Part shown: piece after piece, positions 15,201 to 50,292 of the stretch
Layout: every line of letters starts with the position of its first letter
Position numbering within the stretch: position 1 is the first letter of the stretch
From: Gemmatimonadales bacterium
Lineage (GTDB): Bacteria > Gemmatimonadota > Glassbacteria > GWA2-58-10
Reading direction: 5' to 3'
DNA length: 64,000 nucleotides
Assembly (NCBI GenBank): GCA_024278175.1
Contig: JAJRTS010000080.1
Span: forward strand, 1 to 64,000
Notes under the pieces: model-generated
Databases searched by the model: none
The model's input: the letters and a program-made list of their open reading frames with translations, nothing else
What the model was told of the DNA's origin: nothing
Translations under genes and position numbers: made by a program

Positions 15201-16566
15201 GTTTTCCACTATCGACCCGGACTACCGGCTGAGCAAGAGCGGCCGCGACATGATGAGCGTTTTCGGCGAACTGCGCCACGGCGGAATCGCCCGGCTGATC
15301 GCGGCGGGTGAATCGACGCCCAGCGAGGTTGTGCTGCTCTGGTCGATGCCGTCCATTCACGGCGCCTGGATTCAGGACGGGACCATAGTTGAGCAGGACG
15401 GGGCGCCGAGTGCGATGTTCAAGCGCTGGGAGGCAAACTACGAGAGCTGGCGCTGGCTGCTGGAGGACCTGGGCATACCGTACCGGGTTATCAGTTACCA
15501 GATGCTCGAGGCCGGCTGGCTGGACGGTTCGGGGGCGAAAATCCTGGCGCTGCCCAATTCTATCGCGCTCAGCGACAGTGGAGCCGGGAGGATTTCCGCT
15601 TTTGTACGCGGGGGCGGAGTGCTGATCGGCGATGCGCAGCTGGCCCAGATGGACGGCCACTGCCGCTGGCGCGGCGCGGGAGCGCTGGACAGCATTTTCT
15701 CTATCACATCAATTCCGGGCCAGGTGCAGGTGAGCGAGGGAGTTATCGAGCGCTCAAACGGCTGGGGGCTGGCAAGCGCCGAGAGCGGAATCAGCGCCGT
15801 GGCCGCCGACAGGCTGGACCTCAGCGCCGGTCTGCCGCTGATTTACCGCAGCCGCTACGGCGAGGGCTGGGCCTATTATCTTAACGCTTTCATGGCCGGC
15901 TATGGCCGCCTTCGCGTGGAGCGCCGGGGTGGCGAGGTGCGCAAATCGGTGTCCAGGCTTCTTCACGATGCCGGCTACAAACCCCGCTTCCGCATTCGCC
16001 CGGCCAGCGGCACGGACCTGCGGGCGGTAAAGATGACCACATACAATCTTGGCAAGGGCAGCCTGATCGGGCTGATCAAGGACTACCGGATGCAGGAGCC
16101 GCCGCTGGATATCGAGGTGCGCCTGCCGGAAGAGGGCTATCATTACGATGTGCGCAGCGGGCGTTACCTTGGCCGCGGCAAAATAATCCGCGTCGCGATA
16201 ACCACGGGAGAGATCAAGCTGCTGGCCAGCCTGCCCTATCAGGTGACCGATGTCACCGTGGACCTTCCGCGCAAGGTTAAACGTGGCGGCAAGGTGGAAT
16301 GTTGTTTCAAGGTGAACGTGGCAGCCACCTATCCGGATACCTCCAGCGCCGGGCCGCCCGAGCCGGGGCCCCATGTGTTTGTTGTGGAGGTCTACGGGCC
16401 GGACGGGAAGAAACTGAATCACTACGGCGGAAACGTGGAAACGGAATCCGGGTCCGGGAAGAAAAAATTTCACCTGGCGTTCAACGACAGCAGGGGGACG
16501 TGGCGTGTACGGGTGCGCGATGTGGCCAGCGGAGTGTTCAACGAAAGGTACATGCATGTCGAGTAA
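12286..16566 (+). CDS. Very large secreted GH42/beta-galactosidase-like protein
   Basis: The 1426-residue protein has a signal peptide (residues 1-25, VLVLAAICCAAGLNA). An N-terminal carbohydrate-binding-like sandwich and a ThuA/glutamine-amidotransferase-like segment follow (FDVIVLQPMRGWGNWPPELR). A family 42-like catalytic barrel comes next: YYAYEEPSLTHYGD places two Glu residues at about 794-795, and FRQWLNGRYGALEALNSQWG is the classic GH42 helix. A trimerisation-like flavodoxin fold (VVLLWSMPSIHGAW; KILALPNSIALSDSG) and beta-sandwich domains complete the chain. Typical GH42 enzymes are about 650-700 residues, so this is twice the usual length. The start has a GAGG site eight bases upstream. 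Confidence 0.75.
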   Translation: MAKPVRRILTKVLVLAAICCAAGLNAQDEWGRLQNFEDGDVSRWSLKGQGSVALDSSYATQRKHNLRVDFGRGASLSVDLGGLWRMEEIIREKFSDEGGGGWKIYEAFFTDIYAPEPVGLLVTFRDSVGGVWQEVRYLKKGLNLLQFRRESLHGLDFNSLKSVSYAPAAAARLYFDHVRTWEYQPELDQRGKMDIVYSDSIATPHVKWQRPDAGGAIKGLFTPRAASGRVMVELMQRFELQPTTVTFEPSLGLHRWAFGDFYGTRALGYDHVDDKFTLSYTDLTSELESDKQFDVIVLQPMRGWGNWPPELRSALLERVRQGAGLVLFQPTCRQADSLFSLLSPLDGRVRMEQVRVREADQPEELPGGMRREQWSVADTSHYITRGLALELIPTVDIPYLEYEADGAQVLIASRSGSPILAVGSYGKGRVVAFGWVDQGMFPTVENPLEEREGLPYWEYIYGLTGRAIRWAAGRGDTEHGIFSPSITGGSGDLTVSAELRGVSPGDSLEITVHNGGWDALKTARLAAPASGRIEHRFDHTYPASRVVAGLRHIRAGGRVLDFATATASFRPPGTVEAIEPDKETVRLGIVLSGRVRFRGSPHKVALSLTDNRGRVLGADTLEVEGNSIRFAFNTRGCLSRRAVVSASVLSPGGDALHTMRRPVFIDRPASWDDYEVMMYRFMPMVTAGEWNYLDRRMEELGVTAWAAIDPEFVYRSNLGIQAETRLDSEESLDGEGEIPYRQAKTNYLKTHDKKFLHRIHCLHDPAYLEQQRRVMSEKVSRFKRFSPLSYYAYEEPSLTHYGDAFDLCFSSLTLAAFRQWLNGRYGALEALNSQWGTSFGQWDEVIPDDTFEAQERGNYSSWADHRTFMELSYAQNYAYVRRLVREVDDDGLLMMTGTQRTVPQNGYDYYLIDQAIDHTQPYGEPARHKAFMRECGKITGCTGYGVWGPKLDYELWSRLFAGHTAGSAIFWQFSTIDPDYRLSKSGRDMMSVFGELRHGGIARLIAAGESTPSEVVLLWSMPSIHGAWIQDGTIVEQDGAPSAMFKRWEANYESWRWLLEDLGIPYRVISYQMLEAGWLDGSGAKILALPNSIALSDSGAGRISAFVRGGGVLIGDAQLAQMDGHCRWRGAGALDSIFSITSIPGQVQVSEGVIERSNGWGLASAESGISAVAADRLDLSAGLPLIYRSRYGEGWAYYLNAFMAGYGRLRVERRGGEVRKSVSRLLHDAGYKPRFRIRPASGTDLRAVKMTTYNLGKGSLIGLIKDYRMQEPPLDIEVRLPEEGYHYDVRSGRYLGRGKIIRVAITTGEIKLLASLPYQVTDVTVDLPRKVKRGGKVECCFKVNVAATYPDTSSAGPPEPGPHVFVVEVYGPDGKKLNHYGGNVETESGSGKKKFHLAFNDSRGTWRVRVRDVASGVFNERYMHVE

Positions 16567-17311
16567 AGCGGGAAGCGTACCGGGGCGGCCGGAATTGTCG
16601 CGGTTGGAACGGAAGGTGCTCAAGCTGATAGATGGCTTGCACTCGTGCCGCGCCCTGGAGTTGACCCCCGGGCGCGGCGCACTGACAGCGGAACTGGCGC
16701 GGCGCGGCCACCGGGTGAATGCGCTGGATATCGCGCCGGAAAACTTCAGCGCCGATAAAACCAACATCCGGCTTGCGGCGGGCAACCTGGATGACCCGCT
16801 GCCCTACGCCGACAACTCTTTCGAACTGGTTGTCTGCTGCGAGGGAATCGAGCACCTGGAGCGGCAGTACGAATTCGCCCGCGAACTGGCCCGGGTAATG
16901 GCTCCCGGCGCAATGCTGGTGATAACAACACCCAACATCAACAACGTCGCCAGCCGCCTGCGGTTTCTGCTGACCGGTTTTTTCTCCCTGGCGGTGCGGC
17001 CTTCCAGCGAGTTCGAGCGTAACCGCTATATCGAACACATCTACCCGCTTACTTTCTGGCAGTTTCGCCATATCCTGCATACGGCGGGACTTAAAATCGA
17101 GCTGGTGGATACCGACCATATCCGCAGGAGCGCCCTGATTCTCGCTCCCCTCTGGCCGCTGAGCCGCCTGCTTACCGGCCGTAAACTGGCCGGCGAGCAG
17201 GACCCCCGTCAGCGCGGGGCCAACCGGGAAATCTGCTCCCAACTGCACACTCCGGCGTTGTTTTTCGGCCGGACGATGATCGCCGTGGCCAGGCGGAACG
17301 GCAAAATCTGA
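16556..17311 (+). CDS. SAM-dependent methyltransferase (class I)
   Basis: The 251-residue protein shows the class I methyltransferase signature: ALELTPGRGALTAELARRG (motif I), VNALDIAP (motif II acidic residue) and FELVVCCEGIEHLE (post-motif). It resembles Methyltransf_11 proteins that act on small molecules or glycan precursors. The ATG at 16556 has an AAGG site seven bases upstream; longer in-frame starts lie inside the preceding gene. It overlaps the end of the GH42-like gene by 11 bases, so the two are translationally coupled, which is odd for a secreted glycosidase and a cytoplasmic methyltransferase. Confidence 0.82.
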   Translation: MSSKAGSVPGRPELSRLERKVLKLIDGLHSCRALELTPGRGALTAELARRGHRVNALDIAPENFSADKTNIRLAAGNLDDPLPYADNSFELVVCCEGIEHLERQYEFARELARVMAPGAMLVITTPNINNVASRLRFLLTGFFSLAVRPSSEFERNRYIEHIYPLTFWQFRHILHTAGLKIELVDTDHIRRSALILAPLWPLSRLLTGRKLAGEQDPRQRGANREICSQLHTPALFFGRTMIAVARRNGKI

Positions 17312-17334: not shown

Positions 17335-17368
17335 CAGGGGCTGCACCGGATCGACCGGGCAGCCCCTG
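17335..17368 (+). terminator. GC-rich hairpin after the methyltransferase gene
   Basis: Perfect 10-bp arms (CAGGGGCTGC / GCAGCCCCTG) with a 14-nt loop lie 23 bases after the stop codon. There is no T-run, so this is a weak terminator candidate. Confidence 0.35.
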
Positions 17369-17426: not shown

Positions 17427-17514
17427 GCGGCTCCGGCACGTTCATTGCCAAAGCCGCCGGGGGAGGGATTTGAGCCGGAGGGGGGGCGCAAAGCAATGAA
17501 CGTGCCGGAGCCGC
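17427..17514. repeat. Palindromic element 1 with a 44-nt G-rich loop
   Basis: Perfect 22-bp inverted arms (17427-17448 and 17493-17514) enclose a 44-nt loop that starts CAAAGCCGCC and ends GCGCAAA, with several G-runs between. A sister element lies at 48901-48990 with the same loop length and loop ends, but with different arm sequence that is again perfectly complementary. It sits between convergent genes (methyltransferase and nitroreductase). Confidence 0.85.
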
Positions 17515-48809: not shown

Positions 48810-48846
48810 AAGGGGCCGCACCCATCGAGGATGCGGCCCCTTCTTT
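48810..48846 (+). terminator. Intrinsic terminator of the GH97 gene
   Basis: An 11-bp GC-rich stem (AAGGGGCCGCA / TGCGGCCCCTT) with a short loop and a T-rich tail lies 29 bases after the stop codon. Confidence 0.85.
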
Positions 48847-48900
48847 ATGTACTGCCTGAGGTAGTAATCCCCTGTCCGGAAACCATGACACCGCCAGGAG

Positions 48901-48990
48901 CCGCGGGCCGGCACGGTAGTTGCTTTGCTCCGCCGCCCCCAGAAGTCCCCCCGCCCATGCGGTTTTGGCAACTACCGTGCCGGCCCGCGG
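48901..48990. repeat. Palindromic element 2 with a 44-nt G-rich loop
   Basis: Perfect 23-bp arms (48901-48923 and 48968-48990) enclose a 44-nt loop. Read on the minus strand the loop starts CAAAACCGC and ends GCAAA, with G-runs between, matching the loop ends of the element at 17427. The arms share CCGGCACG and TTGC with that copy but differ elsewhere, with compensating changes on the other arm. The element contains the stop codon of rlmN. Confidence 0.85.
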
Positions 48991-50159
48991 CCTTTGCCAC
49001 CCCGTTGTCGCCCGGCTTCTCTTTTCTCTGTCCTCACCGCTCGCCGTGCATGTGCCCCCGGCGTGCGCACTCCGGCGAGCTGTCCGCACGCTCCGGCGAT
49101 ATCGTTGCCGTGGGGGTCGCGGATTGTCACGGCTGTCTTGCAGAGTTCGAACAGCTTGTCGCGCAATTGGATCAACTCCGGGTGGGTGGGTTTCCTGAAC
49201 GTAAGGCCGTCGACGGGATTATAACCGATCAGGTTGATTTTGCAGGAAAGGCGTTTGCTGATCCTTGCCAGGGCTGTGATATCGGACTCGCTGTCATTGA
49301 TACCAGGCAGGACGAGGTATTCAAGAGTGATCCGCCTGCCGGTGATCCGGTTGCACTCGTGGCAGGCCTTGATAAGTTCGGGAAGGGGTGTTTTTGCGGC
49401 GACCGGCATCAGGTTGCGGCGCAGCTTGTCCTCGGCGGCGTGAAGGCTCAGGGCCAGTTTGACTTGGGGGAACTCTGTGCTGAAGCGGACCATCTGCTCC
49501 GGGAGCCCCACGGTACTGACTGTAATCCGCCGCGCCCCGACCTGCATGAAATCGTTATGGTTCATCACACGGATTGCGGACGCGAGGTTTTCGTAGTTCA
49601 ACATCGGTTCGCCCATGCCCATGAAAACGTAGTTCAGGCTACGGTCGCTGTTGGCGTTGTCGCTGTCGCGGATTTCACCACCCTGGCCGCCGCTGACAGG
49701 ATGGATCGTCTGGACCAGGATTTCTCCGGCGCTCAGGTTCCGTCCAGCGCCCAGCCGGCCGGTGGCGCAGAACGAACAGCCCAGGGCGCAGCCTGTCTGG
49801 GTGGAGAGGCAGACAGTGCGATGGCCACGCTGCATCGGGATCACCACGCTTTCGACCACGGAGCCGTCGTCGGCGCGCCAGAGCTGCTTGATCGTGCGGT
49901 CGCGGCTGACGGATTTTCCGGCGGTCAGCAGGGGATAAAGCTCATAGGCCGAGGCCAGCCGGGAGCGAAGCTCAATCGGCAGATCGGTCATCAGTGCGAA
50001 ATCGAGGGTACCGCGTTGAAAAACCTGACGCAGGATTTGTTTACCCCGAAACGGTTTCACTCCCCAGTGGCCCAACTGCTCGGTAAGATGGGCGGCCGCC
50101 TTGTTTGCGCCGAGATCGAGTAGCGATACTTTACTTTTATTGCTGTCTTGTTTTTTCAT
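48972..50159 (-). CDS. rlmN: 23S rRNA / tRNA adenosine-C2 methyltransferase RlmN
   Basis: RlmN methylates C2 of A2503 in 23S rRNA and A37 in some tRNAs. From ATG 50159 the protein has 395 residues. GCALGCSFCATG holds the CX3CX2C radical SAM cluster (Cys124, 128, 131). GHWGVKPFRGKQILRQVFQRG, VFMGMGEPMLNYENL and LALSLHAAEDKLRRNLMPV are typical. The canonical end (ACGQLAG) is followed by an extra basic tail of about 32 residues that reads into the palindromic element. A start at 50261 would lie in a repeat and is rejected. Confidence 0.95.
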   Translation of the reverse strand: MKKQDSNKSKVSLLDLGANKAAAHLTEQLGHWGVKPFRGKQILRQVFQRGTLDFALMTDLPIELRSRLASAYELYPLLTAGKSVSRDRTIKQLWRADDGSVVESVVIPMQRGHRTVCLSTQTGCALGCSFCATGRLGAGRNLSAGEILVQTIHPVSGGQGGEIRDSDNANSDRSLNYVFMGMGEPMLNYENLASAIRVMNHNDFMQVGARRITVSTVGLPEQMVRFSTEFPQVKLALSLHAAEDKLRRNLMPVAAKTPLPELIKACHECNRITGRRITLEYLVLPGINDSESDITALARISKRLSCKINLIGYNPVDGLTFRKPTHPELIQLRDKLFELCKTAVTIRDPHGNDIAGACGQLAGVRTPGAHARRAVRTEKREAGRQRGGKGRGPAR

Positions 50160-50246
50160 CTTCGTTTCTTTAAGTAGTGAATAATTACTTTGGCCGGGCG
50201 AAGGCGAAATCGATGTTTGATCGGGAGCGTTGTGTCTGCCCCGGAA

Positions 50247-50292
50247 AATCCCCTCTATCAAGAGGGGTGCCCGTATAAGCGGGCGGGGTGTG
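50247..50292. repeat. Double-hairpin repeat, copy 2
   Basis: The same unit as at 39320: CCCCTC-tatcaa-GAGGGG followed by GCCCG-tataag-CGGGC. It lies between rlmN and glyS. Confidence 0.8.

Follow-up and report, generated by a model that had tools for sequence, protein, structure and literature searches.

What maintains two long palindromes that sit between convergent genes, differ in sequence and enclose loops of identical length? The window considered here, the whole 64,000-nt stretch of DNA analysed, holds palindrome 1 at 17427-17514 and palindrome 2 at 48900-48991, each with 100% complementary arms around 44 enclosed nucleotides, and no other perfect inverted repeats of such size with a spacer of up to 200 nt. 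Re-measurement confirmed the pair much as an earlier note had described it, with arms of 22 bp for palindrome 1, those of palindrome 2 being one base longer per side than stated there, at 24 bp. The note had also counted at least seven arm differences that leave complementarity intact; numbered from the inner end, the two palindromes disagree at eight of their first 22 arm positions, each time with a complementary change. Folded as single-stranded DNA, palindromes 1 and 2 score z = -7.8 and -7.4, respectively, against dinucleotide shuffles. The convergent gene pairs that the note placed around them could be identified, and the features of both loci are as follows.

16505..17311, + strand: methyltransferase-domain protein gene, left flank of palindrome 1, outside the element
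17335..17368, no strand: separate hairpin CAGGGGCTGCACCGG-ATCG-ACCGGGCAGCCCCTG, conserved at the orthologous locus (L005/L171 alignment); probably the ordinary 3'-end hairpin of the methyltransferase-domain gene to its left
17427..17448, no strand: left arm of palindrome 1 (22 bp)
17435-17448, + strand: candidate sigma-54 -24/-12 box GGCACGTTCATTGC in the left arm of palindrome 1, directed into the loop (consensus TGGCACG-N4-TTGC, PMC3224663)
17449..17492, no strand: loop of palindrome 1, 44 nt; family loops are unstructured and fast evolving (no covariation, low ortholog identity)
17493..17514, no strand: right arm of palindrome 1
17493-17506, - strand: candidate sigma-54 box in the right arm of palindrome 1, directed into the loop
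17533..18102, - strand: nitroreductase family gene, right flank of palindrome 1, which lies 18 nt from its stop codon
46558..48780, + strand: GH97 glycoside hydrolase gene, left flank of palindrome 2
48810..48842, + strand: terminator-like hairpin AAGGGGCCGC...GCGGCCCCTT-CTTT of the GH97 gene, conserved at the orthologous locus (L006/L255 alignment)
48900..48923, no strand: left arm of palindrome 2 (24 bp)
48910-48923, + strand: candidate sigma-54 box GGCACGGTAGTTGC in the left arm of palindrome 2
48924..48967, no strand: loop of palindrome 2, 44 nt
48968..48991, no strand: right arm of palindrome 2, overlapping the 3' end of the RlmN-like mechanical ORF
48968-48981, - strand: candidate sigma-54 box in the right arm of palindrome 2
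48972..50261, - strand: RlmN-like radical-SAM methyltransferase gene, right flank of palindrome 2

A dispersed family in two uncultured lineages

The two palindromes are members of a family present in about 20 to 100 or more copies per genome in two uncultured groups. Copies were located by pattern and by a covariance model trained on 40 of them: the strict pattern GGCACG-N4-TTGC-N30-60-GCAA-N4-CGTG has 15 matches in the window's genome (G000) and none in a reversed control, and weaker copies added by the model bring the number to ~22. A genome of the same genus (G001) has ~21, and copies are present in all six of the six genomes of the source family, with none, at the filters used, in 292 other genomes of the phylum. 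Among 84,980 species genomes scanned, at least ~80 loci came up outside the source family, nearly all in Candidatus Coatesbacteria Bin_537 (G061), and at least seven Coatesbacteria genomes (G061 and at least six relatives) are carriers, the number reaching 50 to 100 or more in some of them. An RlmN gene adjoins a copy in G001 and G061 as well. The earlier note had suggested a search for further copies and would have abandoned its case had none existed and had a recent inversion or an assembly artefact explained the arms; since many exist, that objection falls.

Arm sequence is genome-specific, the central N4 being mostly TTTC in G061 and mostly GTTT in the related G064, and a few contigs that bear another genome's arm type, such as C10 of G064, may be contaminants or exchanges. 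Among the pattern matches listed outside the two lineages, the N4 are non-complementary and the matches look like chance, though further carrier lineages may exist. That the palindromes themselves are chance inverted repeats, recent inversions or assembly artefacts might be suspected from the copies at contig ends in the fragmented G061 assembly, and from a 109-nt terminal palindrome (L101) of the sort that an assembly fold typically leaves; for the family this is refuted by orthologous copies in independently assembled genomes, by the empty control and by the many distinct loops.

From the inside outwards, each element consists of a loop of 37-44 nt, an arm GGCACG-N4-TTGC read towards the loop, and at least six outer stem pairs. 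The loops have conserved ends and a variable, unstructured middle, and an additional helix within them was rejected, as no pairs covary there. The note's proposal of a G-quadruplex at the loop tip does not survive as a family trait, as the G-runs are neither common to the copies nor conserved, being absent from sister loops (L010, L017 and L225 among them) and not retained in orthologous ones. Elaborations are lineage-specific: in G061 the pair just outside the stem is mismatched in 66 of ~93 copies, a conserved feature in which C faces T or A faces G. About 45-55 nt farther out, the G061 elements have another complementary stem of variable sequence, P1, whose pairing scores a mean of 17.5 against 11.1 for mismatched partners, and G067, another Coatesbacteria genome, has a conserved bulge in the element. 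Two pairs of facing sigma-54 boxes (L075:680-783 and L141:935-1036) enclose loops of ~59-75 nt rather than the usual ~43, and comparable spacings of 87-89 nt occur elsewhere in G061.

The arm as a candidate sigma-54 binding site

The earlier note overlooked that the arm core is a -24/-12 box: GGCACG-N4-TTGC equals the published consensus for the alternative sigma factor sigma-54 (RpoN), TGGCACG-N4-TTGC(W) (PMC3224663, PMC9765219). When tested as sigma-54 elements (GG-N10-GC with TGGCAYR-N4-TTGC), the arms conform, save for one arm in each of G063, G066 and G067. Arm variation falls where sigma-54 tolerates it, namely in N4, as C or T at -21 (GGCAC/GGCAT) and mostly as G or A at -20, and GG and GC are invariant, an invariance overstated by the arm-finding patterns, which required GG and GC ends, and less so at the orthologous loci found by the covariance model, on which more weight is placed. 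The resemblance is thus backed by the pattern of substitution, and supports the arm as a candidate binding site.

Partners for such a site are encoded in carrier genomes. The rpoN gene was found in G000-G005, G061, G063, G064 and G066, the RpoN box ARRT(V/I)AKYR is present in all four RpoN proteins examined, and all nine carriers tested have activator-type AAA+ genes, with 6-24 Sigma54_activat matches per genome. In G062 and G067, which are metagenome-assembled and may be incomplete, rpoN was not found and activators are present. In three distant Coatesbacteria genomes just one of the arms is canonical, the other reading GG-N11-GC in G067 and having GT replacing GG in G063 and G066; any sigma-54 function of both arms could therefore not be universal, with a canonical arm left in each clear case. 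As to driving a downstream gene, gene orientation around the copies is random.

Boxes of this kind also occur in IMG/VR tailed-phage contigs, as arrays of 5-12 perfect TGGCAYG-N4-TTGC boxes of alternating orientation in noncoding stretches (L319:3562-3765, L321:418-911, L334:219-913, L344:1882-2163, L325:689-903, L336:446-1241 and L347:13987-14186), those of L319 and L336 preceding terminase or head genes. They differ from the palindrome family because their N4 are complementary in just 3 of 53 pairs, and they may serve as decoys for RpoN, as promoters or as repeats of origin type.

Compensatory change and the question of structured RNA

Evidence that pairing itself is maintained comes from 16 loci common to G000 and G001, where flanking genes are mostly about 70-87% identical in nucleotide sequence. 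At the five key sigma-54 positions (GG, TGC) no change is seen in 160 comparisons (0/160), against 11 of 160 elsewhere in the box, 14 of 128 in N4 and 29 of 256 in the outer stem; compensation accompanies all seven changed pairs of N4 and five of six such pairs elsewhere in the box. The loops at these loci are largely unalignable, with identity near the shuffled level at most of them. The note's inference of compensatory change, and its view that a hairpin is either selected for or regenerated, are thereby upheld. Moreover, 17-18 of the 22 copies occupy the same locus in the same-genus genome with arms intact and loops decayed, and the copies are therefore constrained rather than dying insertions.

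Across 40 copies and 20 pairs, none of the 800 cells departs from Watson-Crick pairing, by mismatch or G-U, and this includes the 400 cells of the 10 variable pairs (covariation score 0.443 versus 0.105 when shuffled). Structured RNA usually retains some G-U pairs, and their absence therefore favours pairing or copying of DNA, suggesting that pairing is maintained at the DNA level. This bears directly on whether the element is a 3'-untranslated or intergenic RNA hairpin acting as a bidirectional terminator, an RNase III site or a 3'-end protector, a proposal to which the strong stem, the covarying outer helix of G061 and the bulge of G067 lend some weight. In that outer helix, GU and AC mispairs are of similar order, which argues against RNA, and the Rfam covariance models gave no match at gathering score, a single hit below threshold, against a microRNA model from animals, being rejected as chance. 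Nor does the element resemble an intrinsic terminator, having a loop of 37-44 nt instead of a short one and no T-run.

Position relative to genes is informative on the same point. The copies are mostly intergenic and at gene 3' ends: of 42 copies in the window's genus, 27 are flanked by convergent and 14 by tandem genes, none has divergent neighbours, and a rough gene finder put one inside a gene. One side of a copy often lies 12-40 nt from a stop codon, which speaks for an RNA acting at 3' ends. The gene on the other side, however, often ends in a conserved terminator hairpin of its own. None of 101 copies in G061 is inside a gene, 60 being tandem, 11 convergent, 11 divergent and 19 at contig edges, so that 11 of 82 lie between divergent genes, again contrary to expectation for such an RNA. 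Loop orientation relative to genes is random (23:23), which together with the mispairs led us to reject a mRNA-sense RNA, whereas the orientation of the flanks is biased in Coatesbacteria (29:14 in G061, 9:1 in G067) and hints at a transcribed or oriented role. As an RNA would also leave the sigma-54 bases unexplained, we consider this account unlikely.

Copying, inversion and dispersal

Although vertically conserved, the elements bear signs of copying, and the hairpin can therefore be both vertical and dispersed. The loop is inverted relative to its flanks at two orthologous loci (L010/L154 and L025/L165, at a modest identity of 0.61-0.64), and in G061 its orientation relative to the flanks is near random. 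Loops are also exchanged between loci, being 90-95% alike despite unrelated flanks in L090/L140, L096/L132 and L082/L152.

Such behaviour invites comparison with REPINs, in which case the hairpin would be the mobile unit of a miniature mobile DNA, dispersed as single-stranded DNA by some transposase, and the likeness to sigma-54 sites would be incidental or that of a hitchhiking promoter. The layout fits, with inverted arms, a variable spacer of fixed length, compensation and extragenic siting (PMC3116915), and in G067 several copies share the hairpin alone, from -9 to about +80, within unrelated flanks. A recently spread subfamily in G003 (L212, L216, L220, L229, L232, L234-L236, L243, L245 and L246) carries inverted sequences at its outer ends (CCCGGAT...ATCCGGG) together with direct repeats of 4 bp (YTAR), as if spread on a DDE-type transposon; terminal inverted repeats and target-site duplication, the marks of a MITE, are seen in that subfamily only. 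One G061 locus (L119:3349) has the P1 inverted repeat without the central palindrome, P2, and is a possible empty site. In other G067 copies (L281, L283, L292, L293 and L294), the hairpin lies within a longer repeat unit (about 440-505 bp).

Against this stand the shared loci with intact arms and decayed loops, arms that are not individually palindromic and carry no GTAG tag, and negative searches for a mobiliser. The link to REP/RAYT-type transposases raised by the earlier note was not borne out: no Y1_Tnp (RAYT-type) gene was found in G003, G061 and G064, three of the high-copy genomes, and the RAYT-like Y1 proteins of Coatesbacteria G063, G066 and G067 (L299, L300, L302 and L303) do not adjoin the element. 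The window's genome has IS200-type TnpA copies (L041-L046), several of them at contig ends. A RAYT/REP system was rejected. No gene recurs beside the copies, and the idea that a shared neighbour mobilises them or marks a regulon was likewise rejected. Mobile DNA of this kind is accordingly a somewhat unlikely explanation of the whole.

A tentative model

The reading that we prefer, to which as a whole we give a probability of about 0.42, is that the family consists of palindromes of facing sigma-54 boxes, dispersed in the manner of REPINs, on which RpoN is predicted to dock, which may serve as a block at gene ends and whose complementarity would be renewed by templated correction. RpoN-RNA polymerase would dock on one arm. 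The two predicted start sites are head-on and ~20 bp apart, and the pair would for this reason be a poor ordinary promoter; the element would more likely act as an orientation-neutral binding block or insulator. Templated correction, from arm to arm and copy to copy via a DNA hairpin, could keep complementarity, including that of N4 and the outer stem, and selection would hold the key bases GG-N10-GC.

The insulator or 3'-end block function is a guess, because some arms are deviant, because rpoN went undetected in G062 and G067, and because intragenic sigma-54 sites in E. coli were found to have no roadblock effect (PMC4591121). Three further points count against the preferred reading, in that two sigma-54 sites alone need no complementary N4, the conserved mismatch outside the G061 stem persists where simple correction might erase it, and the flanks show the orientation bias noted in Coatesbacteria.

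A putative sigma-54 hairpin promoter for single-stranded DNA is very unlikely, if economical. The arms of a single strand would pair to form a double-stranded -24/-12 element, the stem would end exactly at -12, and the loop would provide an already open start region, from which RpoN-RNA polymerase might prime or transcribe with no need to melt DNA. If true, it would account at once for the sigma-54 bases, for the complementarity that N4 must have, for a loop that is free except in length, and for why neither orientation nor inversion of the loop matters.

Comparison with known systems

REPINs are REP doublets that form hairpins, with inverted conserved arms, a variable spacer of constrained length, compensatory changes and many extragenic copies (PMC3116915). 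The family shares the inverted arms, constrained spacer, hairpin, compensation and high-copy extragenic dispersal. It differs in that its arm is a sigma-54-type box, where REPs are individually palindromic and tagged, in having no RAYT beside its copies or in three high-copy genomes, and in being strongly vertical within the genus.

With sigma-54 promoters the family has in common GG-N10-GC, a pyrimidine at -21, and carriers with rpoN and activators. Unlike them, it is a face-to-face inverted pair (one arm non-canonical in G063, G066 and G067) with complementary N4 and an outer stem, set in random gene orientation and not upstream of a gene set. In E. coli, sigma-54 also binds widely at sites that are not promoters, which are conserved and mainly intragenic (PMC4591121). 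These resemble the family in being conserved and not sited as ordinary promoters, and differ in their mainly intragenic position and in not being described as palindromic or as dispersed repeats. Single-stranded hairpin promoters are also known, the F plasmid Frpo and the rolling-circle sso, which use sigma-70-type elements on mobile single-stranded DNA. Promoter elements in the stem and a start in an open loop would be common to both, putatively so for the family, which is chromosomal and of sigma-54 type.

No described sigma-54 palindrome family was found in the open-access literature and, set against it, the family adds to the known dispersed palindromic repeats a kind whose arm is, unexpectedly, a transcription-factor box. 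Compensation at orthologous loci makes it an unusually clean test, in natural genomes, of selection for pairing against templated palindrome correction. If RpoN binds, sigma-54 recognition is built into a dispersed and selectively maintained palindrome of uncultured lineages, tying REPIN-type repeats to the transcription machinery and putting in question the role of 20 to 100 or more head-on sites per genome.
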